Below, piece by piece: positions 3,100 through 54,441 of a stretch of 64,000 bases of DNA (position 1 is its first letter; each line of letters begins with the position of its first letter). The notes beneath the pieces were generated by a model. The model searched no databases. It was not told the DNA's origin and was given only the letters and a program-made list of their open reading frames with translations. The translations under genes and the position numbers were made by a program. Source of the DNA: Flavobacteriaceae bacterium (GTDB lineage: Bacteria; Bacteroidota; Bacteroidia; Flavobacteriales; Flavobacteriaceae); NCBI GenBank assembly GCA_029243385.1, contig JAQWSC010000007.1, positions 124,001 to 188,000 on the forward strand, written 5' to 3'.

Positions 3100-4527
3100 A
3101 TGCATCAAAACAACTATAAAGACGCACTTACAGATTCTATTTTCAGAATCATTTCCGACGCAGCCGACGCGCTGAACATGGAATGTTATGTTATTGGAGG
3201 ATTTGTACGTGATTTTCTGTTGGAAAGAGGCACTCCCAAAGACATTGACATTGTAGCTGTTGGTAGCGGTATCGCATTGGCAAAAAAAGTAGCCAAAGCT
3301 TTACCTCATCAACCCAAAGTTCAGGTTTTTAAAAATTTTGGGACAGCGATGATTAAATCCGATGACTTGGAAATTGAATTTGTCGGTGCTCGCAAAGAAA
3401 GCTACCAAGAAAACAGCCGAAAACCAACCGTAGAAAACGGCTCTTTAGAAGACGATCAAAAACGAAGAGATTTTACTATTAATACGCTAGCCTTTGGATT
3501 GAATCGTGAAAATTTTGGAAGATTATTAGATCCCTTTGCTGGCGTCAAGGACTTGAAAAACAAATGCATTCGTACGCCACTTGATCCAACTATTACGTAT
3601 TCCGATGATCCGTTGCGGATGCTTCGTGCCATTCGTTTTGCAACTCAACTGGACTTTACCATACATCCTGACTCGCTTCAAGCCATTGATGAGCAAAAAA
3701 ATAGAATTGAAATTATCTCGAACGAACGAATCGTTGACGAGCTTCACAAGATATTGCTAACACCAAAACCTTCCAAAGGATTTTTATTGCTTGAAAAAAC
3801 CGGATTGTTGCACTTTATACTTCCCGAACTAACGGCTCTAAAAGGTGTTGAAGAAATCGAAGGTCAGCTTCACAAAGATAATTTTTACCACTCACTGGAA
3901 GTCGTGGACAATATCTGTCCAAATACTGATAATTTGTGGTTGCGTTGGGCCGCCCTTTTGCACGATATTGGAAAAGCACCCACCAAAAAGTTCAGTAAAA
4001 AAGTAGGCTGGACTTTTCATGCTCATGAGTTTGTGGGCGCTAAAATGGTATTTCAATTGTTCAAACGACTTCGGATGCCGTTGAACGACAAAATGAAATA
4101 CGTTCAAAAATTGGTATTTATGAGTTCGCGACCTATCGTATTATCTCAAGATACCGTTACCGATTCGGCTGTAAGAAGATTGGTTTTTGATGCAGGAGAT
4201 TATGTCGAGGATCTGATCACTCTTTGTGAGGCCGACATCACCACAAAAAATCCAAATCGTTTTAAAAGATACCATCAAAACTTTAAGTTGGTACGAGAAA
4301 AAATTATCGAAGTTGAAGAAAAAGACAGCATTCGAAACTTTCAACCTCCTATAACAGGAGAAGAAATTATGGAAACTTTTGGCTTGTCTCCCTGTCGCGA
4401 AATTGGCATCCTAAAAGAATACATCAAAGAAGCTATTTTGGAAGGAGATATTCCAAACGAATACGAATCTGCCAAAAAAATAATGTTTGAAAAAGCAACT
4501 GAATTGGGATTGCAAGCCCGTAACTAA
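3100..4527 (+). CDS. cca: CCA-adding enzyme / tRNA nucleotidyltransferase with HD domain
   Basis: Class II nucleotidyltransferase that builds or repairs the 3' CCA end of tRNAs (or poly(A) polymerase-like). The N-terminal head has GGFVRDFLL with the metal-binding pair D48 and D50 in [17 protein letters not shown] and the RMLRAIRFA helix follow. A C-terminal HD phosphohydrolase domain is present ([11 protein letters not shown], then HAHEFVG), as in flavobacterial homologues of about 475 residues. The start is ATG at 3100, one base after tsaC; a longer frame exists upstream but overlaps tsaC in another frame and adds no conserved sequence. ctaA follows after 13 bases. Confidence 0.92.
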
Positions 4528-20631: not shown

Positions 20632-21819
20632 TTAGGCTATAACTCCCGAACCTACAAGTTCATCTTGAATATACCAAGCGGCAAACTGACCCTGAGTAAT
20701 TGCTGATTGTGGCGTTTCAAAGAGCAAATATCCTCCAGACGCTACGCGGTGCAAAGTAGCTTTTTGAAGCGGTTGTCGATAGCGAATCCGAGCTAAAACT
20801 TTGAGTTGCTGACCTTCGGATAACTCCAAATCTGAGCGTACCCAATGCAATTCTTTTTGATCGATAAACAATCCTTGACGGTACAATCCTGGGTGATTTT
20901 TCCCTTCACCCACATAAATTGTATTGGTTTTGACGTCGGTAGCTATAACAAATAAGGGTTCTTGGGTTCCGCCTACCGCCAAGCCCTTTCGCTGACCTAC
21001 GGTAAAAAAATGAGCACCTTGATGCACTCCTACCTGAACTCCGTCCGTAGGCTGATAAGTCAGTTGAGTTGATAAATACTTCGCTTTTTCTTCTAAAGAA
21101 TGTAACGAAGGCTCCGATAAATGGTAGGCAGGATGTTCTTTTGGAATCGCAACAATAGCCCCTTTTTTAGGCTGTAGTTGTTGCTGAAGAAAATCAGGCA
21201 AACGAACTTTTCCAATAAAACAAAGACCTTGTGAATCTTTTTTATCAGCAGTTACAAGCTGCATTTCAGAAGCAATATTTCGAACTTCCGACTTTGTCAA
21301 TTCTCCAATAGGAAAAAGTGTTTGGGAGAGTTGATTTTGCGATAATTGACACAAAAAATAGGATTGATCTTTGTTGTTATCAACACCTGCTAGCAATCGA
21401 TGAATGCCATTTTGGGTGTCTTTTCTACAATAGTGACCCGTTGCCACAAAATCTGCTCCAAGCTCCAATGCAATTTTTAAAAAAACATCAAATTTGATTT
21501 CACGATTGCATAACACATCTGGATTTGGCGTACGTCCGCATTCATATTCACGAAACATATAGTCAACGATTCTCGTTTTATATTCAGCACTCAAATCTAC
21601 CGTTTGAAAGGGAATTCCCAGTTTTTGCGCAACAATCATGGCGTCGTTGCTGTCCTCGAGCCAAGGACATTCATCGGAAATAGTAACCGAGTCGTCGTGC
21701 CAATTTTTCATAAAAAGACCAATGACCTCGTAGCCTTGCTGGACCAATAAATGGGCAGCTACACTCGAGTCAACACCTCCAGAGAGGCCAACTACAACAC
21801 GTTGTTTAGAAGATTTCAT
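20632..21819 (-). CDS. mnmA: tRNA-specific 2-thiouridylase MnmA
   Basis: Adds sulphur to C2 of U34 in Lys, Glu and Gln tRNAs, taking it from a persulphide relay and using ATP. It has 395 residues. The PP-loop is [14 protein letters not shown] (residues 8-21). The first catalytic cysteine is in [12 protein letters not shown] and the second in [10 protein letters not shown], the pair that form the persulphide/disulphide. GHYCR is the tRNA-binding histidine region, and the C-terminal beta-barrel is present. The ATG at 21819 is the family start. It is 29 bases downstream of yidC and probably part of the pyrG-yidC-mnmA transcript. Confidence 0.97.
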
Positions 21820-21848
21820 AACAGCACAAAGTTACAAAAAAGCAACTG

Positions 21849-23672
21849 CTATTTGCGTTTGTTTAATTTTTGCTGTTCTTCTGCCTGCTCCATTACTTCT
21901 TGGAGTTTGCGCTGAAAACGATTTTGTTTTTTGGGTTTTTTCTTGTTTTCCTCGATTTGAGCATGAATTTTATCGTCATTGATGATGTAATTTTTAATAA
22001 CCAACATAATGACAATTGTTATCAAGTTCGAAATAAAATAATACAAACTCAAACCACTGGCATAGTTATTAAAGAAAACCAACATCATTACTGGCATTAA
22101 ATACATGATAAACTTCATGTTGGGCATACCGGGTTGTGGGTTTTGCATTTGTTGTCCAGTAGTCATCATTGTGTAAAAGAAAATCGCAATGGATGCTAAT
22201 ATCGGAAACAAGCTTACATGATCTCCATAAAAAGGAATGTAAAATGGAAGTTCTGCTATAACGTCATAGGAAGAAAGATCTTCTGCCCATAAGAACGATT
22301 TTTGGCGCAATGCAAAAGCCACAGGAAAAAAGCAAAACAAGGCATAGAATACAGGCAATTGAAGAAGCGCAGGGACACAACCAGACATCGGATTTACGCC
22401 TGCTTTACGGTACAACTTCATGGTTTCTTGCTGACGTTTAACTGCGTCTTTTTTGAATTTATCGTTCAAAGCTGTAATCTCAGGCTTCAGCACTTTCATC
22501 TTGGCTTGAGACAGGTATGACTTGTATGTGACTGGAGACATAGCAAATCGAACAATAACCGTCATTAAGATAATTGCAATACCGTGTGGTAAAAATCCGC
22601 TTAAAAAACCAAAAAGTGGGAAAAATACAAATCGATTGATCCATCCAAATATTCCCCAACCAAAGGAAATAGAGTCCGTTAGATCATTGTCTAATTTTTT
22701 CAACACATCATAATCTGCAGGGCCTACATACCATTGAAAATGTGAATTTAACTCACCTTGTGAAGTTTTGAGTGGGATTTGGGAACGAAAATTTTTAGTA
22801 AAAACCACATCTTTACCTTCATCTTCTACAAGGTTTTCAGAAGTAAAACTAACCGAATCAAACGAAACATCCGGTATTAAAATCATACTGAAAAAATGCT
22901 GATTGTAAGATACCCAAGAAACGTCTTCGTCCTTGTCATCATCATTGCTAGCAGCCGATAAGTAGCCTATTTTGTCTCCTTCATATTGATATTTTAGCTC
23001 GGTATAACGGTTTTCATAAATAACACTTTTGGCTTGGCGAAATCCTTTTAAATTCCAGTCCAGTGCAACTTCTTTGTCACCATTTGTCAAAGCCGAAAAT
23101 CCTTGTGAAACAATTGAAAAATCAAGCATATATCCGTCGTTTGGCAACGTATATCGGTACTCAATAAACTGGGTTTCAGAAACCACCATCTTCATAGAAA
23201 GCACTTGTGCGTTGTCTTGTGTTGACAGCGATGGTGTAAAATACAGTTGTCGGGTTTGAATTTTTTGATTCGCCCGATTGAAAAAAGTTAAATCAAAATG
23301 CTCATTACCATCTTTGATTAAATAAATAGGGGCTCCTTTAAAGTCATTCAGCCCTTTCAACTGAGCTTCGGAAATAAAACCCCCTTGAGTACTAACCGAT
23401 AAATACAATTGTTCGTTTTCTAAAACAATTTGTTTTTGGTCTTGCTCTCCTGAAGCCAATTCTGTAAAATCCCCTAAATTGGGTGAGACGATAGCATTGG
23501 TTGAAACTTGCGTATTTGGAGTTGTATTTTCTGACTGAACATTTTCTTGCGCAGGAGTATTTTCTGAGCTTTCCTCAGTCACAGGCTCTTGAACACTGAG
23601 CATCCAAGTGAAAATTCCTGCAATCAATATAAAACCTATAAGTTGATACGGATCAAATTTTTTCTCTTCCAT
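21849..23672 (-). CDS. yidC: Membrane protein insertase YidC
   Basis: Inserts and folds inner-membrane proteins alone or with SecYEG. It has 607 residues: an N-terminal signal-anchor helix (about 8-24), a large periplasmic beta-supersandwich domain (about 60-340, including the acidic loop DDDKDED), and the conserved five-helix insertase core from about 355, starting at GWGIFGWINRFVFFPLF. The core arginine in MTVIVRFAMSPVTYKSY and the GCVPALLQLPVFYALF motif are typical. A lysine-rich cytoplasmic tail (KKKPKKQNRFQRK and beyond) may bind ribosomes. It starts 2 bases after the pyrG stop. Confidence 0.97.
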   Translation of the reverse strand: MEEKKFDPYQLIGFILIAGIFTWMLSVQEPVTEESSENTPAQENVQSENTTPNTQVSTNAIVSPNLGDFTELASGEQDQKQIVLENEQLYLSVSTQGGFISEAQLKGLNDFKGAPIYLIKDGNEHFDLTFFNRANQKIQTRQLYFTPSLSTQDNAQVLSMKMVVSETQFIEYRYTLPNDGYMLDFSIVSQGFSALTNGDKEVALDWNLKGFRQAKSVIYENRYTELKYQYEGDKIGYLSAASNDDDKDEDVSWVSYNQHFFSMILIPDVSFDSVSFTSENLVEDEGKDVVFTKNFRSQIPLKTSQGELNSHFQWYVGPADYDVLKKLDNDLTDSISFGWGIFGWINRFVFFPLFGFLSGFLPHGIAIILMTVIVRFAMSPVTYKSYLSQAKMKVLKPEITALNDKFKKDAVKRQQETMKLYRKAGVNPMSGCVPALLQLPVFYALFCFFPVAFALRQKSFLWAEDLSSYDVIAELPFYIPFYGDHVSLFPILASIAIFFYTMMTTGQQMQNPQPGMPNMKFIMYLMPVMMLVFFNNYASGLSLYYFISNLITIVIMLVIKNYIINDDKIHAQIEENKKKPKKQNRFQRKLQEVMEQAEEQQKLNKRK

Positions 23673-23674
23673 AA

Positions 23675-25318
<1,644 letters not shown>

Positions 25319-25419
25319 TTAACAGCCTCAAAAATACAAAAAGTATTGTGAACTGATACGAATTATATCAATCAAAAAAAGGAGATAAAATCGACTTCAA
25401 CAAAACCTAATTTCAGAGC

Positions 25420-27183
25420 TTAGTCTTTAATTTCATTAATGGTAAGGTCTTCATGCTGAATCAAATATACGCCTGTGTTGGTGTATCCTCCACTAAAAAC
25501 ACTTTGATAGTTGAATTTATTATGCAAGTATTTGGTCTCTCCAACTAGGGTTGGGCTTACCATGCTTTCTTGAAATGCAATACGGAGCAACGCATCCAAT
25601 GTAACATCATAGGCGCGAACTACCACTTTATTGGGTAGCGTACCGTATTGATTTTTGTATTTTCTAGAAAACTGTTTAAACGGATTGTTTTCAATGGGTT
25701 TTTGAATAGAAGGATACAGAAAATGTAGCTTTCCCAAATACTCGTAAGAAATATTTTCGTTGTCATAAACATCCCCTCGGTAAGTGGTCATTAAAGTAAT
25801 ATCTCTATCATCACTACTTTGTGCATTTAACATCGAGGTAATGCTCGTAATAAGGTTTAGTTTTTGTGTTTCTAAAAACACCCAATTGTTTTGGACATCT
25901 ACCAATAACGAATCGGTCAAATCGGGTTTTACAAATCCACCCATTTCGTCAGGATCAATTACTTCTGCTAAAGGAAAACGTTTTAGCAATTCTTTTTTTA
26001 TGGCCTGGTTTTCCTTGTCTGCAATAATCATTACACAAGGATTGATTTCTTTTTCAAGTTTTCTGTCCAAATAATTTAACATTGTTTTTCGTAACAACTT
26101 CTCGTCTGGAATTGATTGATAGACATTGGTTTTTAAATCGACTTTTTTGGTGGAAAGAGGCGAAATAACAAGTACTCCTTTTGAATGCAAACGCTTTGAA
26201 ACCTGATTGACATGACTTGGAATCAAAGGTCCTATTACAACATCTTTTTGTTCCAAACTTTGACTGTTGAGAATGGCCTGCACTTTGGAGGAATTGTTTT
26301 CGGTGTCATACACATCAACTTCCAAAGAGACTCCTAAGGAGGTAAGTTCTTGAAAAGCCAATGAAGCGCCTGAATAAAAATCCAATGAAATGGTGTGTAA
26401 ATTTCGTTTTTGCAATAGCAAATTGGTGTTCTCAACCGAATCAAGATCAACTTCAGAAGCTTTAAACGGAGCCATTAATGCTACTTTTATAAATCGATTA
26501 CTGAGCACGCTGTCTTTCAGTGAAATCGTTTCTACTAATAACGAATTCTTCACAGACATATCACTTTTTTGAGATTTGGGAACACGAATTACCATTCCAA
26601 CCTGAAGCCCCATTTCCTTTATATTAGGGTTGAGAGAGTCAATAACTTTTCGATCTACTCCTAATTTTTTATAAAGCCTGTAATACCCTTCTTTGGGTTT
26701 TAGCGTGTAGTAAAAATAATCTTCGTCCAAGGTGTTCTTAACAATGTTCGGAGAGGACAAAGGAATTATGAGCTTTTGACCAATACTCAATATTTCTCCC
26801 AATGATGGATTAGATTCTTTTAATTCTTCGACACTAATACCGTAGGTGTAAGCAATACGCCAAAGGGTTTCTTTAGGTTGTACCAAATGCAGCTTGTTGT
26901 TACTTTTTTGGGTAACCGTTACGGTTCGATACCTTGGGATTTGAAGCTTCATTCGCTTCTTGAGTTTAGAAGTTATTAATTTCGGATTGTGCTCAAGAAT
27001 TTGATCTGTAGTGATTCCGTACCGTTTTGCGATTCCAAACAAGGTTTCTTTTCGTTTGACTTTGTGTCTTACAAAGCTTGAAACTTCTTGAATTTCATGT
27101 GTTTCAGTTAATACAGTATTCTGTTCCTGTGCAAAAGAAAGCACAGAAAAAAACAGCATACTAATAATTAGGGCTTTATACAT
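25420..27183 (-). CDS. Secreted LysM triple-repeat protein with PBP1-like domain
   Basis: A 587-residue envelope protein. A Sec signal peptide (1-19, FFSVLSFAQ) is followed by three LysM peptidoglycan-binding repeats at about 39-85, 98-142 and 157-203 (KETLFGIAKRYG, KETLWRIAYTYG and a more divergent KEGYYRLYKKLG). A type 1 periplasmic-binding-protein-like domain follows at about 231-587 (FIKVALMAPF and VIGPLIPSHVNQVSKRL). The arrangement resembles amino-acid-binding or LpoA-like proteins tethered to the cell wall. The ligand is unknown. The start is ATG at 27183; a longer frame runs into guaA but lacks a signal-like start. It lies 7 bases after guaA, so it is likely cotranscribed. A cell-wall sensor or activator role is inference. 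Confidence 0.88.
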   Translation of the reverse strand: MYKALIISMLFFSVLSFAQEQNTVLTETHEIQEVSSFVRHKVKRKETLFGIAKRYGITTDQILEHNPKLITSKLKKRMKLQIPRYRTVTVTQKSNNKLHLVQPKETLWRIAYTYGISVEELKESNPSLGEILSIGQKLIIPLSSPNIVKNTLDEDYFYYTLKPKEGYYRLYKKLGVDRKVIDSLNPNIKEMGLQVGMVIRVPKSQKSDMSVKNSLLVETISLKDSVLSNRFIKVALMAPFKASEVDLDSVENTNLLLQKRNLHTISLDFYSGASLAFQELTSLGVSLEVDVYDTENNSSKVQAILNSQSLEQKDVVIGPLIPSHVNQVSKRLHSKGVLVISPLSTKKVDLKTNVYQSIPDEKLLRKTMLNYLDRKLEKEINPCVMIIADKENQAIKKELLKRFPLAEVIDPDEMGGFVKPDLTDSLLVDVQNNWVFLETQKLNLITSITSMLNAQSSDDRDITLMTTYRGDVYDNENISYEYLGKLHFLYPSIQKPIENNPFKQFSRKYKNQYGTLPNKVVVRAYDVTLDALLRIAFQESMVSPTLVGETKYLHNKFNYQSVFSGGYTNTGVYLIQHEDLTINEIKD

Positions 27184-47056: not shown

Positions 47057-47579
47057 GAGAAGCATTGTTTAAGTGAGTATAAAAACGGTCGAAAATAATT
47101 CGAAACCAAACGGTGTATTGATTTGGATGGGTCTGCATATCAGAATGAACCTCTTCGAGAGCCATCCATTTCCAGTCAGCAACCTCCTCGGGATTGATTT
47201 TTGGTTGGTCGTCAAATTTTCCTGTCAACACATGATCCAATTCGTGTTCGGTAAGACCGTTGTCAAAAGGAGCTTTGTAAATAAATGAAATTTCTTCTTG
47301 CAAAGGCACGGAAAAACCCATTTCTTCCTCAAGGCGCCTTACACCGGCCTCTAGGGAAGTTTCTTCATGGCGTTGATGACTGCAACAAGTATTGGTCCAC
47401 AATCCAGGCGAATGGTATTTGTGAAGTGCGCGTTGTTGCAACATCAGTTCCCCTTTGGAATTAAAAATAAAAACCGAAAAGGCACGATGCAACACCCCTT
47501 TTTCATGTGCCTCCATTTTGGGCATCAATCCAATGGGTGTATCCTTTTCATCAACCAAAATTACCAGTTCTTCCTTCAT
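47040..47579 (-). CDS. idi: Isopentenyl-diphosphate delta-isomerase (type I)
   Basis: A Nudix-fold enzyme that converts IPP to DMAPP in isoprenoid synthesis. It has 179 residues. The active cysteine is in WTNTCCSHQRHEE, the catalytic glutamate region is in GVRRLEEEMGF, and the metal histidines include the first HRAFSVFIF and CSHQRH. It starts MKEELVILVDEKDTPIG. Type I Idi is typical of many flavobacteria. It overlaps queD by 17 bases; upstream is the divergent T9SS protease gene. Confidence 0.96.
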   Translation of the reverse strand: MKEELVILVDEKDTPIGLMPKMEAHEKGVLHRAFSVFIFNSKGELMLQQRALHKYHSPGLWTNTCCSHQRHEETSLEAGVRRLEEEMGFSVPLQEEISFIYKAPFDNGLTEHELDHVLTGKFDDQPKINPEEVADWKWMALEEVHSDMQTHPNQYTVWFRIIFDRFYTHLNNASHESNR

Positions 47580-47696
47580 AAATACACTACGAAGTTACAA
47601 AATTTGAAACTATTAATGTTGTAAACCCAACAGTATGCTTGAAAACATTACATTTATTTTTCATATATTTATTTACTATATAATTAAATTTATAAA

Positions 47697-49526
47697 ATGT
47701 TCAAAAGATATTCCATTTTATTCGCTTTACTTGTGTTTTCGTTCGTCTCTGCTCAAGATGAATTTTTAGTAAAAATTCCTCTAAAACAGCAAGTTGCGAT
47801 GGCTTCAACTGTGGTTGAAGGCAAGGTAGTTTCCAAAAAATCCTATTGGGATACGGGAAGAAAAAACATTTATACTGTGCATACTATTGATGTTAGTAAA
47901 GTCTATAAAGGAGCTTCCAAACAACAAATACACCTTGTTAGCTTGGGAGGAGTTGTTGGGTTTCAAGCTCAAATTGCAAAACCTCAATTATCATTAAGGC
48001 CCAATGCTGTAGGTGTTTTTGTCGTCAATGCTTTTGACAGAACTCTCGAAGATTTTGAATCCACTGTCCCTCTTTACAAAGCAATTGGCTTGAGCCAAGG
48101 ATTCTATCGATACAATCTAGAAAATACGAGCGTATCCAATCCTTTTGTAAGATTCTCCAACCCTCAAAAATTGGACGATACATTAAAGTCGCTTACAGGC
48201 ATAGAGCCCAAACAAATGAAAGCAGTGGATTATTTTAACAAAAAAAAAAGCAGTCCTTTAACTCAGAAGAATGTTGCTGCTGTTGCTGCTGCCTCAGCCA
48301 TTAGTTCTATAAGTCCAACGCAAATAGCTGCAGGAAACAAATCAGTGCTTACCATTAGCGGATCGGGTTTTGGAGCATCGCAAGGCGAGGTCTTTTTTCG
48401 ATTGGCAGATGATGGAGGTGCTACCGATTTTGCGGTCTTAGAAACACAAATTGTTAGTTGGACCGACTCAGAAATACGAGTAGAGGTTCCAGGAGATGCT
48501 GGCTCAGGAGATGTGAAAGTAAAAACCGCTTCCAATACTGAATTTTCAATAAGTGGCTTAGTGATTAGTCATAGCTATATAACTGTAAACTATTCCGACG
48601 CAAATATACAAGGCGGAAAAGAGATAGAATATAGACCCCATCATATATCAAGTGCTCAATCGGGCGGTGCGCCTTCCGGAAACTTTGATAACGGTTCGTA
48701 TGTTTTTAGCTATCATACCGATTTTAAAAACAATACCGCAGCAGTAACCGCTTTCGAAGACGGATTTGACGATATTGTGTGTGGAGCAGGAATAGATTTT
48801 AAAATCAGTTCCTCATCAACTTCAGTAAAAACCCCTGCCGACGACAACATTAACAGCATATCCTTTGATCAGGTTGATACTGGTATTTTGGGACAAGCCA
48901 TTAGCCGTTTCTCTGGAGGTTATATTTCGGATGTGAATGGGGATCTCTCTTTGTATTGGGCTTTTAAAGAAATTGACTACGTATTTGACGAATCCCAAAC
49001 GTGGGACTTTGACTTGGATGGAAATACCATATTCACAGAATTTGATTTTAATGCAGTAGCCAGACACGAAACGGGACACGCCGCTGGGTTGGGTCATGTA
49101 ATTGACAACCAAAAAATAATGTATTTTTCTGCAACAACGGGGCCATTACAAACGATAACCTCCAACTCCATGTTCAATCCAATTCTGTCAAAAATAACAA
49201 ACGACAAAAACACAACTCCTCAAAGCTTTTTTACTGCTACAGATTTTTCCAGCTGCTATCTAACTTCTCTTCATGCTCAAATTTTTAAAGAAAAATCATT
49301 TATTGTATTCCCCAATCCGGTCGCAGAAATACTTTCAGTAGAAAGTATTTCTCCTATTCAAAACGCATTTATTTATGATTTGAAAGGTTCCGTTTTAATG
49401 CATTCGTCACAAAGAGAGGATAAAACATCTTTTTCAATGGATGTGAGTCATCTAAATCCTGGGGTTTATTTTATATCCCTTCGAAATGATCAAGGCGTTT
49501 ACAGTCAAAAATTTATAAAAAATTAA
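47697..49526 (+). CDS. T9SS type A secreted zinc metalloprotease with TIG domain
   Basis: A 609-residue exported protein. A signal peptide (1-19, ends SAQ) is followed by a domain of unknown function (about 30-190), an IPT/TIG immunoglobulin-like domain (about 205-290, ISSISPTQIAAGNKSVLTISGSGF), and a peptidase region with the metzincin zinc motif HETGHAAGLGH at 457-467, including the third histidine and the GLGH glycine. A type A C-terminal sorting domain occupies roughly the last 75 residues (FIVFPNPV, then LNPGVYFISL, end FIKN). It is predicted to be secreted by T9SS and attached to or released from the surface. The substrate is unknown. The combination resembles matrixin-like enzymes. Confidence 0.92.
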   Translation: MFKRYSILFALLVFSFVSAQDEFLVKIPLKQQVAMASTVVEGKVVSKKSYWDTGRKNIYTVHTIDVSKVYKGASKQQIHLVSLGGVVGFQAQIAKPQLSLRPNAVGVFVVNAFDRTLEDFESTVPLYKAIGLSQGFYRYNLENTSVSNPFVRFSNPQKLDDTLKSLTGIEPKQMKAVDYFNKKKSSPLTQKNVAAVAAASAISSISPTQIAAGNKSVLTISGSGFGASQGEVFFRLADDGGATDFAVLETQIVSWTDSEIRVEVPGDAGSGDVKVKTASNTEFSISGLVISHSYITVNYSDANIQGGKEIEYRPHHISSAQSGGAPSGNFDNGSYVFSYHTDFKNNTAAVTAFEDGFDDIVCGAGIDFKISSSSTSVKTPADDNINSISFDQVDTGILGQAISRFSGGYISDVNGDLSLYWAFKEIDYVFDESQTWDFDLDGNTIFTEFDFNAVARHETGHAAGLGHVIDNQKIMYFSATTGPLQTITSNSMFNPILSKITNDKNTTPQSFFTATDFSSCYLTSLHAQIFKEKSFIVFPNPVAEILSVESISPIQNAFIYDLKGSVLMHSSQREDKTSFSMDVSHLNPGVYFISLRNDQGVYSQKFIKN

Positions 49527-49540
49527 TTGACAAACTTCTA

Positions 49541-49571
49541 AAAAAAGACACGCAACCGTCTTCCTTTTTTT
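49541..49571 (+). terminator. Terminator after the T9SS protease
   Basis: AAGAC and GTCTT form a 5-bp stem with flanking A-T pairs, followed by a TTCC and a T run to about 49571. It starts 15 bases after the stop. Confidence 0.5.
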
Positions 49572-49606
49572 AGCGATAATCAAAGAGGTCATTTCAAAAA
49601 CAATAT

Positions 49607-49614
49607 TATTTTTG
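49607..49614 (+). promoter_or_regulatory. Putative -7 element for prfC
   Basis: TATTTTTG fits TAnnTTTG exactly. It supports the ATG at 49632 as the prfC start, since the alternative TTG at 49617 would be upstream of the transcript start. Confidence 0.35.
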
Positions 49615-49631
49615 CATTGCGAAACCACACT

Positions 49632-51218
49632 ATGAGTTTTACTAAAGAAATTGCACGACGCCGAACCTTTGGAATCATTTCCCATCCCGATGCTGGAAAA
49701 ACCACCCTAACCGAAAAGCTGTTGCTTTTTGGGGGTGCCATTCAAGAAGCAGGGGCTGTGAAATCTCATAAAATTAAAAAAGGAGCCACGAGTGATTTTA
49801 TGGAAATCGAGCGTCAACGTGGGATTTCGGTGGCTACTTCGGTATTGGCTTTTAATTATCAAAACAAAAAAATCAATATACTGGACACACCCGGTCACAA
49901 AGATTTTGCGGAAGACACCTTTCGAACGCTAACGGCTGTGGATAGTGTGATTGTTGTTATTGACGTTGCTAAAGGGGTTGAAGAGCAAACCGAAAAATTG
50001 GTTGAAGTATGTCGTATGCGAAACATTCCCATGATTGTGTTCATCAACAAACTCGATCGCGAAGGAAAAGACGCCTTTGACTTGCTTGATGAAGTAGAGC
50101 AAAAGTTGGGGCTCAAAGTATGCCCCTTGAGTTTTCCGATTGGAATGGGCTATGATTTTCAGGGAATTTACAACCTGTGGGAACAAAACATTCGATTGTT
50201 TAGCGAAGACAACAAGCAACGTATCAGCGAAACCCTTGAGTTTAAAGACCTCGCTCATTCAGATCTTGACAAACACATTGGTGAAAAAGCAGCCACTACA
50301 CTCCGAGAAGAAATTGAACTGGTTACGGAAGTCTATCCAAATTTTGACAAACAAGCCTATGCAGACGGAACGTTGCAACCTGTATTTTTTGGTTCAGCAT
50401 TGAACAATTTTGGCGTCAAAGAACTGTTGGATTGTTTTATAGAAATCGCTCCGCCTCCGCGCCCCAAAGCCAGTGAAGAACGCCTCGTAGTTCCCGAAGA
50501 AGAAAAATTCAGTGGATTTGTATTTAAAATTCATGCCAATATGGATCCCAAACACCGCGATCGTTTGGCGTTTATAAAAATTGTTTCGGGAACTTTTAAG
50601 CGCAATACGCCCTATTTGCACGTACGACACAATAAAAAACTCAAGTTCAGCAGTCCCAATGCATTTTTTGCAGAAAAAAAAGAAATCGTTGAGGAATCGT
50701 TTCCAGGTGATATTGTTGGATTGCACGATACAGGGAATTTTAAGATTGGTGATACGCTTACCGAAGGTGAAAAAATACATTTTAGAGGTATTCCCAGTTT
50801 TTCGCCCGAGCATTTTCGATACATCAACAATGCCGATCCGATGAAGTCCAAACAACTCGCCAAAGGTATTGACCAGTTGATGGACGAAGGGGTTGCCCAA
50901 TTGTTTGTACTGGAAATTAACAACCGAAAAGCCATTGGAACTGTGGGAGCCCTTCAGTTTGAAGTCATTCAATACCGATTGGAACACGAATACGGAGCCA
51001 GCTGTTCGTACGAAAACTTGAACGTTCACAAAGCCTGTTGGGTTGATCCAGAAGACGACACCAACGATGAATACAAGGAGTTTTTGCGTGTAAAAAGTAA
51101 GTTTTTAGCACGCGACAAACAAGAACAATTGGTGTATTTGGCAGACTCGATGTTTTCGTTACAAATGACACAACAAAAATATCCTAGTATTCGTCTCCAC
51201 GCCACCTCAGAGTTTTAA
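49632..51218 (+). CDS. prfC: Peptide chain release factor 3
   Basis: The GTPase that removes RF1 and RF2 from terminated ribosomes. It has 528 residues from the ATG at 49632 (MSFTKEIARRRTFGIISHPDAGKTTLTEKLL). G1 is HPDAGKTT, the DTPGHKDF is G3, NKLDREGKD is G4, and the switch I RGISVATSVL is present. The longer domain arrangement and KAIGTVGALQFEVIQYRLEHEYG near the end are RF3-typical rather than EF-G. It is followed by a 227-base spacer with a direct repeat, then the ppk2 pair. Confidence 0.97.
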   Translation: MSFTKEIARRRTFGIISHPDAGKTTLTEKLLLFGGAIQEAGAVKSHKIKKGATSDFMEIERQRGISVATSVLAFNYQNKKINILDTPGHKDFAEDTFRTLTAVDSVIVVIDVAKGVEEQTEKLVEVCRMRNIPMIVFINKLDREGKDAFDLLDEVEQKLGLKVCPLSFPIGMGYDFQGIYNLWEQNIRLFSEDNKQRISETLEFKDLAHSDLDKHIGEKAATTLREEIELVTEVYPNFDKQAYADGTLQPVFFGSALNNFGVKELLDCFIEIAPPPRPKASEERLVVPEEEKFSGFVFKIHANMDPKHRDRLAFIKIVSGTFKRNTPYLHVRHNKKLKFSSPNAFFAEKKEIVEESFPGDIVGLHDTGNFKIGDTLTEGEKIHFRGIPSFSPEHFRYINNADPMKSKQLAKGIDQLMDEGVAQLFVLEINNRKAIGTVGALQFEVIQYRLEHEYGASCSYENLNVHKACWVDPEDDTNDEYKEFLRVKSKFLARDKQEQLVYLADSMFSLQMTQQKYPSIRLHATSEF

Positions 51219-51220
51219 AA

Positions 51221-51284
51221 TTTTTTTGTTACCTTAGCATAGAACAGTCCCCAAATTTGTTCTGCACGCATGAATAGCCTACAA
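51221..51284 (+). repeat. Imperfect direct repeat, copy A (5' of ppk2 pair)
   Basis: A roughly 60-base segment whose core CCCCAAATTTGTTCTGCAC (51249-51267) is identical to the copy at 53119-53137. On both sides the match continues with mismatches: a T tract plus TTAGCA before the core, and ATGAA-x-A-x-CCTAC after it. Each copy begins a few bases after the stop of a complete or near-complete gene. Copy A is followed by an unrecognised 59-codon frame (51270-51449) that ends as ATGA over the ppk2 start. The rest of the 227-base prfC-ppk2 spacer has no other feature. Confidence 0.7.
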
Positions 51285-51445
51285 ACTACTTCAATAGATC
51301 TGAAAAATTCACTCAGCACTTTCACTCCTTGCATTAAGAGGTGTTTAAGACAGTCTTTGATGCGTTATATTATTAAATTGAAGTGTCTCTTTTTAAGGAG
51401 AATTCTATTTTGCCATTTATGGTTTTCATCCTCAAAAACCAACCT

Positions 51446-52293
51446 ATGAAATTTGAATCCAAGCATCTTGAAAACACTTCCAGAAGAAGCGATCTGATTA
51501 TCCTTGCGGAAAAAAAAACATTCCCATTCATAACACGCTTAACAAATTGAAGTATGAAGCCGAATTACGAGAATTGCAATCCGAATTGGTAAATCTTCAG
51601 AAGTGGATTGCTGAAAAACAAATGCGAGTTGCCATTCTTTTTGAAGGCAGAGATGCCGCTGGAAAAGGCGGTGCTATCAAGCGTTTTAAAGAACATCTGA
51701 ACCCAAGAACGGCACGTGTAGTAGCACTGAGCAAACCTACTAATGTCGAACAAGGACAATGGTACTTTAGACGGTATATTAAAGTGTTACCAAATCCGGG
51801 TGAACTTGTATTTTTTGACCGCAGTTGGTACAACCGGGCTGTAGTGGAGCCCATCATGGGGTTTTGCTCAAAAACACAATACCAAAAATTTATGATTCAG
51901 GTTCCAGAATTTGAACATTTGCTGTACGAGGATAACGTAAAAATCATTAAGTTTTGGTTTTCTATCTCAAAAGAAGAACAAAACAAACGTTTTATTGCGC
52001 GTTTAAACAACCCGTTAAAACAATGGAAATTCAGTTCTGTTGACAAGAAAGGACAAGACTTGTGGGACGATTATACGCACTACAAAGAACAAATGTTTAG
52101 TAAAACACATACCAATTTTAGCCCGTGGATTATTGTAAAGACAAACAATAAAAAAGAAGCACGTTTGGAGAGCATGCGGTTCGTATTGTCTCAATTTGAT
52201 TATGAAGGAAAGGATGTCTCCAAGGCCACTATATTGCCAGACCCCAATATTATTATGCGATACCACAGAAGCGCCACTCAAATTGATATTTAA
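51446..52293 (+). pseudogene. ppk2: Polyphosphate kinase 2, copy 1, frameshifted in an A9 tract
   Basis: PPK2 enzymes transfer phosphate between polyphosphate and nucleoside di- or monophosphates. The N-terminus (MKFESKHLENTSRRSD) is in one frame from the ATG at 51446; the rest (LKYEAELRELQ and onward) is in the -1 frame. The switch fits the nine A at 51510-51518. If joined by a -1 shift the product is about 282 residues, the family length. Downstream the domain is intact: Walker A EGRDAAGKGG, lid and catalytic DRSWYNRAVVEP, SWIIV-like tail. The lesion could be one lost A (pseudogene or sequencing error), phase variation, or slippage on A-AAA-AAA. Without the shift only a 34-residue peptide or a product from a non-ATG start is made. 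A second copy follows 10 bases later. Confidence 0.75.
51510..51518 (+). repeat. A9 homopolymer at the ppk2 copy 1 frame switch
   Basis: Nine consecutive A residues where the zero frame reads GAA-AAA-AAA-ACA. Slipping back by one base on A-AAA-AAA joins the N-terminal and catalytic reading frames of PPK2. Such tracts are prone to length change and to ribosomal or polymerase slippage. Confidence 0.7.
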
Positions 52294-52303
52294 TTGAAAC
52301 ACT

Positions 52304-53089
52304 ATGCGCACCCCTAAGTACACCCAAGAAGATATGGCCTTATTCAATTCCAAAACAGGACTGTATTCTCTTTTAAGAAAGAAAAGAATCAATCCTGATA
52401 AGGTTCTTGAAGAAATTCAATACGCTACTGAACTCAAAAAAAAACAAGAAGAACTCATAAAACTTTAAAATAGGGTCATCCAAAACGACCAAAAAGTCGT
52501 TGTTCTTTTTGAAGGTAGAGATGCCGCCGGAAAGGGCGGTGCTATTCGGCGTATTACCGAATATATCAATCCCAGACACTTTCGAATTGTAGCGCTCAAC
52601 GTTCCGTCTGAAGACGAACGAAAGCAATGGTTTTTTCAACGCTACATCAATCAACTGCCCAAACCTGGCGAACTTGTGTTTTTTGACCGCAGTTGGTACA
52701 ACCGGGCTGTAGTAGAGCCTGTTAACGGATTCTGTACTCAAGAAGAATACCGTATTTTTATGTCACAGGTCAACGACTTTGAAAAGATGCTGGTAGCATC
52801 CTCTACTTTTCTGATCAAATTGTATTTTTCGATAACCAAAAAAGAACAAGCTGCCCGATTTGCCGAAATAGAAGCAGACCCACTGAAACGATGGAAAATG
52901 ACCGCTGTTGATGAAAAAGCACAAAGTTTGTGGAATGATTATACACAGTATAAAAAGAAAATGTTTGAAACAACCCATACGCAAATTGCCCCATGGCACA
53001 TTATCGATGCTAACAAAAAGTCTGCAGCTAGACTCAAAGCCATTTCGCATATTTTGGAACAAATTCCGTTTGCGTCTGTGGAGCGTTAA
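52304..53089 (+). pseudogene. ppk2: Polyphosphate kinase 2, copy 2, interrupted by one stop codon
   Basis: Same frame throughout: MRTPKYTQEDMALFNSK starts normally, codon 55 is TAA (52466-52468) and the frame then continues NRVIQNDQKVVVLFEGRDAAGKGG to the natural stop at 53089. Homologues have glutamine at this place (LIKLQNRVI), so a single CAA-to-TAA change is the likely lesion. Walker A, DRSWYNRAVVEPVNGFC, and KRWKMTAVDEKAQ are all intact and would give about 261 residues. No ATG or GTG lies between the stop and Walker A, so re-initiation would not give an active enzyme. It is a fresh pseudogene, or a stop read through at low level. It is paralogous to the copy before it. Confidence 0.8.
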
Positions 53090-53091
53090 TT

Positions 53092-53153
53092 TTTTTAACT
53101 AATTTAGCACAGAGCGAACCCCAAATTTGTTCTGCACTGATGAAAAACCTACG
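53092..53153 (+). repeat. Imperfect direct repeat, copy B (3' of ppk2 pair)
   Basis: Contains the 19-base core CCCCAAATTTGTTCTGCAC at 53119-53137, 1870 bases from copy A, with the same flanking pattern (T tract, TTAGCAC before; ATGAAAAACCTAC after). It sits directly after ppk2 copy 2 and leads into an unrecognised frame. Confidence 0.7.
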
Positions 53154-53419
53154 ACTCATACCCAATACATTTCGATATTCAACGATTTTCAATGCGTTTT
53201 TTGTTTTTGATAATACCTGTTATTCAAAAAAATCTCTTGCAAATACTAATTGGTCTCATGACTTTATAATAATCAACCAAAACATTGCAAATCCATATTT
53301 TATAAAAGCAAAAAGTACAACAATATATGCTGATTTGGGAAGTATTGTTGAACAAAAATATAACGGAAATAAACACACCTCGGTGTATATATACACTAGT
53401 TAACCGAAAAACCAAAAAC
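53138..53419 (+). other. Unassigned stretch with an unrecognised 87-codon frame
   Basis: Noncoding-looking, AT-rich sequence between ppk2 copy 2 and the VOC remnant. It has one open frame of 87 codons (53140-53403, MKNLRLIPNT start, lacking motifs, signal or compositional support) that I do not accept as a gene. The region replaces what should be the N-terminal half of the VOC gene, so it probably marks an insertion or recombination join. Confidence 0.4.
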
Positions 53420-53626
53420 CCAGAGTTTATGATAAATTACCGAGTCCAAAACATCGATGGGCTTGTATTAAAACTCAAGAATAATGGAGTGACAATCGTT
53501 GATGACATAGAAACGTTTGACTACGGAAAATTTGTTCATATTATGGATGCAGAAGGAATTAAAATAGAACTTTGGGAACCCATCGACAGCGTATTTACCG
53601 CAATGGGTGGAAAAACAACCAAGTAG
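53420..53626 (+). pseudogene. VOC/glyoxalase family protein, 3' half only
   Basis: Encodes the C-terminal half of a VOC-fold protein: FMINYRVQNIDGLVLKLK, then YGKFVHIMDAEGIKIELWEP and a KTTK end. In VOC proteins this segment carries the second metal-ligand glutamate (the E in IELWEP). The N-terminal half with the first ligand is missing; an open frame upstream reads unrelated sequence. It is probably a truncated pseudogene; a possible short product would start within the upstream join. No metal centre could form from this piece alone. Confidence 0.72.
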
Positions 53627-53754
53627 ATTAAAAATTACGCACTGTTATCAAAGAAAACTTCTGCAATCTAAAATGAATGAGCAAATCCGTTAATTTTTTA
53701 TAAATTAGCCCTACTCCCCACTCCTACTCAAAAGAAATAGTAACACAAGCCGCA

Positions 53755-54441
53755 TTGATTGTAAACCAATACAAGCTCGACAACCCTGCCTGGAATTCTT
53801 TGAATGAAACGCACAAGCTTTTCTCCAAAGCGTTTGCTGGGATAAAATTTTACGATCCTGATTATTGTGCTTTTGGAGGCACTATAGATACTGAATTGGC
53901 CGTAAAAGGTATGAATGACTATTCCAAACTGATTACCCGTTTTTATGTCATTGGAGAAAAACCCGTTCTGACGGATTCCATGCAGTTAAAAAACAATTTG
54001 GTGTGTCATCAAATGGTATTGGAATCGCCTTTTGATATGGCATTCAACGAGGCGGTTGTTCCATTAAAAACAAAAAAAGAACTCCAAGATGTTCACAATT
54101 TAGTGAATTTGGTACAGCCGGGTTATTTCAAAAACAAAACGGTAGCGCTGGGCGATTATTTTGGAATTTATAAAGAAAACAATTTGGTAGCAGTGTGTGG
54201 TGAGCGTATGAAAATGAATGCGTTTACAGAAATAAGTGGTATTGTTACCCATCCCAATCATACAAGAAAAGGATATGCCCGACAACTCATCAAACGTACT
54301 ACAGACAAGGTTTTTCTGGAAAACAAAACACCTTACTTGCATGTTGTTGAGTCCAATACCCATGCCATTTCATTGTATGAAAAACTGGGATTCAGCACGA
54401 GAAGAAAAATCAGTTTTTGGGACATTGAGATGTCACACTAA
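53755..54441 (+). CDS. GNAT family N-acetyltransferase
   Basis: An acetyl-CoA-dependent acyltransferase of about 228 residues. The N-terminal half (to about 110) is specific to this subgroup; the GNAT core follows: LGDYFGIYKENNLVAVCGERM (beta2-3), EISGIVTHPNHTRKGYARQLI containing the acetyl-CoA pyrophosphate loop R/Q-x-x-G-x-A (HTRKGYA), and VVESNTHAISLYEKLGFSTRRK (motif B). The substrate is unknown. The best start is the TTG at 53755 since no ATG precedes the conserved region; the in-frame sequence back to 53704 has no start of better quality, and this may be a 5'-eroded gene in a decaying region. Confidence 0.8.
   Translation: MIVNQYKLDNPAWNSLNETHKLFSKAFAGIKFYDPDYCAFGGTIDTELAVKGMNDYSKLITRFYVIGEKPVLTDSMQLKNNLVCHQMVLESPFDMAFNEAVVPLKTKKELQDVHNLVNLVQPGYFKNKTVALGDYFGIYKENNLVAVCGERMKMNAFTEISGIVTHPNHTRKGYARQLIKRTTDKVFLENKTPYLHVVESNTHAISLYEKLGFSTRRKISFWDIEMSH

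Follow-up and report, generated by a model that had tools for sequence, protein, structure and literature searches.

Two adjoining polyphosphate kinase 2 (ppk2) genes lie on the + strand of a Flavobacteriaceae genome, and each of them carries one lesion that interrupts its reading frame. The question raised by this locus is whether the cell has just lost PPK2, whether the lesions are regulatory and the proteins are still made, or whether the assembly is in error, the three possibilities listed in an earlier note made from the sequence alone. The window, that is, the whole 64,000-nucleotide stretch analysed here, is C9:124001-188000 of a 1.69 Mb genome (G000; 15 contigs, 99% complete), and the pair stands within it between prfC (49617-51218) and rpoC, as we take these two neighbors to be from their sequences. 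The features of the locus are collected in Table 1.

Table 1. Features of the ppk2 locus, in positions of the window
Feature	Position	Strand	Basis or remark
Repeat-family copy, promoter-like by eye, and leader, 5' of copy 1	51208-51306	+	repeat search
Leader ORF, 59 aa, TGA overlaps copy 1 ATG (ATGA)	51270-51449	+	same arrangement in sister
ppk2 copy 1, N-terminal frame, ATG to TGA, 34 aa	51446-51550	+	TGA 51548-51550
A9 tract, site of copy 1 frame change	51510-51518	+	sequence, sister comparison
ppk2 copy 1, body, 248 aa from TTG	51547-52293	+	PPK2 profile, TIGR03707
Copy 1 Walker A, EGRDAAGKGG	51643-51672	+	motif
Copy 1 Walker B region, DRSWYNR, class I Asn	51817-51837	+	motif; class rule from the available text of PMC8776046
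ppk2 copy 2 up to and including premature stop, 54 aa	52304-52468	+	ORF
Copy 2 in-frame TAA, 5' of Walker A	52466-52468	+	sequence, alignment column
ppk2 copy 2, remainder	52469-53089	+	first in-frame start codon GTG 52676, past Walker A
Copy 2 Walker A, EGRDAAGKGG	52511-52540	+	motif
Copy 2 Walker B region, DRSWYNR	52685-52705	+	motif
Second repeat-family copy, directly 3' of copy 2	53082-53178	+	repeat search

In copy 1, the PPK2 body is read in another frame than the one beginning at the ATG, and this second frame is open across the A9 tract to its end at 52293. The TTG at 51547-51549 overlaps the TGA of the first frame (TTGA), and the ORF starting there covers positions 6-226 of the 229 in the PPK2 profile. 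Copy 2, with its TAA read as a residue, covers positions 4-227 of the 229; the alignment column in which this stop stands holds Gln in 87 and His in 4 of the 91 other sequences, which come from relatives among the best 80 of 134 loci and from fetched genomes. Both copies match the Pfam PPK2 family (E 7.5e-91 for copy 1, 1.2e-86 for copy 2 read through) and pass the TIGR03707 cut-off of 301.8 bits (345.1 for copy 1, and 321.7 for copy 2 with the TAA as Gln), and the Asp and Lys of Walker A and the Asp and Arg of Walker B are all present in both. Relative to their homologues, both copies have a disrupted frame, as pseudogenes do. The earlier note had read the letters in the same way, with a frame change at the A9 tract, a stop where Gln is expected, and intact catalytic motifs in frames otherwise open, and all of this is borne out. 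Two of the further checks it had proposed were run as well: the whole 1.69 Mb genome has just these two PPK2 matches and no third ppk2, and relatives are intact at both places, with a copy 1 that passes the tract in one frame in the sister species and the Gln or His at the copy 2 stop column.

The arrangement is conserved well beyond this genome. Our search of the collection used copy-2 peptides, so that genomes with copy 1 alone escape it, and the best 80 of the 134 loci were taken further; together with fetched relatives and the window, 90 loci (89 distinct by sequence) have both copies over most of their length, and in all 90 the order is copy 1 and then copy 2, both on one strand, the copy 1 stop lying 1-92 nt from the aligned start of copy 2. 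Three loci are incomplete: a contig end cuts L051, copy 1 is partial in L043, and copy 2 is split in L114. Records bearing the pair include Flavobacteriaceae, Saprospiraceae, Flammeovirgaceae, Ignavibacteriota, and Rhodohalobacter, and Flavobacteriaceae and other Bacteroidota are the nearest named relatives by copy 2 in this set of the best 80 of 134. When 247 genomes were drawn evenly from the phylum, 8 adjoining pairs, that of the window among them, were found at an E-value limit of 1e-68, besides a copy 1 at a contig end (G176) and a single gene ~45% like both types (G293); a lone gene in G038 is 54% like copy 1 and of unsure place in the tree. A 52-protein tree places the two types in groups of their own (support 97/78 for copy 2 and 66/98 for copy 1), and the window copies are therefore not recent duplicates.

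We aligned 92 copy-1 and 92 copy-2 sequences, the window included and the relatives drawn as above; L089 and L118 are the same pair twice, and the copy-1 set includes the lone G038 gene. Walker A and the Asn after Walker B, which is the class I signature in the available text of PMC8776046, are found in 92/92 of either type, and the Walker B Asp in 92/92 of copy 1 and 91/92 of copy 2. The lid separates the types: the second lid arginine (Francisella R178) is Arg in 92/92 of copy 1 and in 0/92 of copy 2 (Ile 89, Met 2, Leu 1), and the PPK2 lid motif R-X2-3-R, as described in the portion of PMC4748334 at hand, is present in copy 1 and not in copy 2. His at Francisella position 76 occurs in 91/92 of copy 1 and 32/92 of copy 2. 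The pair is like class I PPK2 (TIGR03707, PPK2_P_aer), for example Francisella tularensis PPK2 (PDB 5ll0, 4yeg) and Sinorhizobium meliloti SMc02148 (3czq, 6dzg), in its profile scores and in keeping Walker A, DRSWYN, and the class I Asn, and the full-length copy 1 of a relative has a predicted fold resembling that of 5llf, to which it is 54% identical over 237 columns. It is unlike class I PPK2 in having two adjoining paralogous genes in place of one, in the missing second lid Arg of copy 2, and, in the window, in that both genes are broken.

The lesions appear to be young. Just one of 101 near-invariant columns is changed in the window's copy 1 (Val to Ile) and none of 74 in copy 2, and residues kept to this degree point to recent lesions; the same conservation would be equally expected if both products were still made by recoding. 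The end branches of the window copies in the 52-protein tree, 0.14 and 0.27, are like those of their neighbors, and none is long. Between the window and its sister species, dN/dS is 0.033 for copy 1, 0.032 for prfC, and 0.068 for idi, a weak comparison because dS of copy 1 is 1.81, near saturation, over 118 codons.

This sister species (G001; 100 contigs, 92% complete) is the one other genome of the genus in the collection. At the same place 3' of prfC it retains half of copy 1, the first, with 89% identity to the window over 118 aa; its N-terminus (MKFESKHLEN...) lies in one frame and is homologous to the first frame of the window. The tract is A-rich in both species, with A9 in the window and A8, in frame, in the sister. 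The homology ends at ...KFMVQ, from which the sister gene continues in frame into an unrelated tail of 125 aa, making an open ORF of 277 aa (L112:13851-14684); the tail matches nothing in Pfam down to an E-value limit of 0.1, and the fusion is possibly a chimera of assembly, given the state of that genome. Copy 2 is absent, an FkbM-type methyltransferase comes next after the fusion, and the half gene is the only PPK2 match in the sister genome. As far as the two sequences tell, most of the pair is lost in the sister by a different event from the lesions in the window.

We believe, with a probability of about three in four, that a Flavobacteriaceae lineage of reduced genome is here in the course of losing a conserved class I PPK2 unit of two genes. 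In the genus, the PPK2 reaction, the phosphate transfer between polyphosphate and nucleotides, would have come under relaxed selection, and each species would have lost the unit by its own mutations, in the window by a length change at the A tract of copy 1 and a nonsense change in copy 2. Copy 2 is expected to be null because its stop comes before Walker A and is followed by no in-frame restart ahead of that motif. Copy 1 may leak, either by slippage at the A9 tract or by restart at the TTG, in the latter case without two predicted N-terminal helices. That the cell has just lost PPK2 is therefore the best of the three possibilities of the earlier note, the lesions being recent and, within the compared parts, clustered in the pair, and a separate event having removed most of the pair from the sister. 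Its further suggestion, relaxed selection on polyphosphate metabolism, is too wide: it fits PPK2, but not ppk1 and ppx, which are open frames of 715 and 313 aa without internal stops, near each other on one strand, in both the window genome and the sister. A loss of all polyphosphate metabolism is ruled out by these frames.

The distribution of PPK2 was compared with genome size. Among 59 other, related genomes, PPK2 is found above the cut-off in 35/44 of those of at least 2.0 Mb and in 1/15 of the smaller ones, this one being the half gene of the sister; a Fisher test of 0/15 against 35/44 gives p 3e-8, with kinship not corrected. PPK1 is found in 3/15 of the small genomes (<2.0 Mb) and 39/44 of the larger ones. 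It seems, then, that PPK2 is on its way out of the genus and that PPK1 is still in place. Gene decay of this sort is ordinary, and its interest lies in a genome caught dropping its PPK2 branch with the ppk1 and ppx frames still open. Pseudogenes made by poly-A slippage are described from the reduced genomes of Buchnera and Blochmannia in the available part of PMC5009743; copy 1 resembles them in that the gene is conserved apart from a change of frame at a run of A, and differs in that neither endosymbiotic life nor rescue is evidenced for the window genome. In ocean metagenomes, the abundance of ppk2, unlike that of ppk1 and ppx, did not correlate with phosphate according to the accessible sections of PMC3030594, which has no direct bearing on this locus. 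Counted against the loss of PPK2 are lesions of one copy in three other pairs (copy 2 of L045, copy 2 of L114, and the N-terminus of copy 1 in L052), some of them perhaps assembly errors.

A tentative reading, which we hold to be possible but short of an even chance, concerns the pair as such: rather than being a chance duplication, the two genes could encode the halves of an undescribed heteromeric class I PPK2, in which copy 1 would do the work and copy 2 would regulate it or guide the polyphosphate, a split counterpart of the two-domain class II enzymes. Losing either subunit would free the other from selection, and this would explain why both copies are hit. The likeness to class II lies in two PPK2 domains with Arg at the lid place in one and a hydrophobic residue in the other (alignments by eye): two-domain 3czp has Leu in its first domain and Arg in its second. 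In the two-domain enzyme of P. aeruginosa, the N-terminal domain is inactive, as stated in the available text of PMC8776046. Unlike class II, the pair consists of separate genes with their own starts and stops instead of two domains in one chain, copy 2 keeps Walker A and B, and the class site holds Asn, not Gly. The kept Walker motifs of copy 2 and the one-copy lesions in L045, L052, and L114 stand against a heteromer. No description of a tandem or heteromeric PPK2 was found in the open-access papers searched, and the review PMC8776046 nowhere uses bacteroid-, tandem, paralog, or operon in its available text. Were the heteromer true, a widespread "polyphosphate kinase 2," annotated gene by gene, would work as an enzyme of two subunits, and assaying either subunit by itself would be misleading.

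Returning to the loss of PPK2 as the preferred reading, the alternatives are that the proteins are still made or that the lesions are not real. It is rather unlikely, in our judgment, that copy 1 is switched or tuned and copy 2 alone is dead, with replication slippage at the A9 tract giving ON and OFF cells, or slippage of RNA polymerase restoring the frame in a fraction of the transcripts. The A-rich tract common to both species and the near-invariant residues kept 3' of it would fit, and there is a precedent in Citrobacter rodentium, where transcriptional slippage at an 11-A run restores full-length protein from an interrupted tssM1 (in the available part of PMC4256274). However, half of copy 1 is lost outright in the sister, slippage at the A9 tract cannot explain the premature stop of copy 2, and no unusual RNA fold of the kind that a programmed frameshift might use was found over 51480-51620 (z -0.33), nor any Rfam match at gathering scores in the window. 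For copy 2, the first in-frame ATG, GTG, or TTG past the TAA is at 52676, beyond Walker A at 52511, and rescue would therefore need true readthrough. Of the regulatory lesions suggested by the earlier note, those in copy 1 are thus conceivable, by slippage or by TTGA restart, and that in copy 2 is so only with stop readthrough. A copy 1 started at the TTG would be without its first 34 residues; the structure predicted for a relative (L035) has two confident helices there, and a long third helix begins in the same part (pLDDT block means of 85-92). Francisella PPK2 is without the N-terminal extension of other PPK2s, according to the available text of PMC4748334, and the loss of this part need not abolish the activity of the TTG-start form.

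That assembly or polishing errors have produced the lesions, with one or both genes intact in the cell, is unlikely on the sequences compared. An A tract that is one base short is a typical sequencing error, the lesion of copy 1 is of this kind, and the near-invariant residues otherwise kept in both copies would be expected of intact genes; the lesion of copy 2, on the other hand, is not of the homopolymer type, and the sister has lost the pair too. Codon-usage scans for further frame breaks over 364 kb were too weak, missing both known lesions, and the sister species was therefore used as the comparison. A comparison with ORFs of all frames was dominated by antisense ORFs. From five distinct stretches of the sister, 68 non-overlapping ORFs were compared with the window: 23/68 had no hit, and 45/68 aligned. 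The 42 aligned sense ORFs comprise 40 intact ones, one that runs off the edge of the window, and one that is flagged, namely ppk2 copy 1, so that no other sense ORF is flagged in the compared 48.2 of 64 kb (the larger uncovered parts being 1-2523, 21120-26987, 47579-49617, and 51900-53704); of the 3 aligned ORFs antisense to longer genes, 1 is intact and 2 are flagged. Copy 2 has no counterpart in the sister and so lies outside this comparison. In the reverse direction, with two more overlapping stretches of the sister, 54 window ORFs were compared: 38 are intact, 8 have no hit, 4 lie at an edge, and 4 are flagged, these being both ppk2 copies, a sucC ORF with an over-long start, and one short ORF. 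The chance that two random lesions both hit the pair is ~0.001, a post hoc figure calculated by length from the compared parts. Finally, 364 kb of the assembly contain eight A/T runs of 9 nt and two of 10 nt at a depth of >60 nt within ORFs of 100 aa or longer (one of the eight is copy 2's own A9, counted within an antisense ORF), which makes a general homopolymer fault unlikely. The assembly errors considered in the earlier note are disfavored by these runs, by the absence of other flagged sense ORFs, and by the Gln/His column of copy 2.

Programmed expression, in which copy 1 is shortened by design through termination and restart at TTGA and copy 2 is made by reading through its stop, has the TGA/TTG overlap and the PPK2 domain retained in the short copy 1 in its favor but is highly improbable, because copy 1 is open from an in-frame ATG in 77/80 loci (the best 80 of 134; of the other three, L043 and L051 are cut by contig ends, and L052 alone has a stop near the start), so that the short form is not the family design, and because the missing part holds two confident helices in the relative's predicted structure and copy 2 has no in-frame ATG, GTG, or TTG ahead of Walker A.

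Some smaller features of the pair and its surroundings may be described here. The window copies are nearly identical around DRSWYN, with 50/54 nt alike (51799-51852 against 52667-52720) compared with ~61% over 51560-52200. Many relatives are alike in this, with a median of 44/54 nt and up to 53 in the same stretch of 76 relatives, and a peculiarity of the window is thereby ruled out; the sequences suggest either repeated gene conversion or very strict constraint. In the other damaged pairs, L052 has a TAA near the copy 1 start (~3144-3250), copy 2 of L045 has a stop at the Walker B Arg, and copy 2 of L114 is split by a frame break. Flags for a "stop inside" in G033, G165, and G258 were natural gene ends, and copy 2 of G214 proved open over its aligned part.

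On the 3' side of copy 2, within 53140-53755, the short ORFs 53140-53403 and 53327-53626 look like gene remnants; the second has no Pfam match and presumably resembles the end of a glyoxalase-type protein. The pair is also flanked by two copies of a repeat family of ~100 bp, made up of a T-rich stretch that is promoter-like by eye, a leader, and an ATG with the first codons. In both species, a leader ORF begins in the repeat and ends in the ATGA overlap with copy 1. Further copies are found on contigs C2, C4, and C13 of the window genome and, in the sister, at the same place 5' of copy 1, with two weaker matches in other stretches of the sister. The copy on C2 leads into a truncated N-terminus of a tyrosine recombinase, of which no other copies were found in either genome. 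Taken together, the repeats (the window copies and those of L146, L151, L143, and L112) stand before different accessory genes, once a truncated integrase-like gene, and a recombinase gene may have left the repeat behind as a site of insertion or as a promoter.
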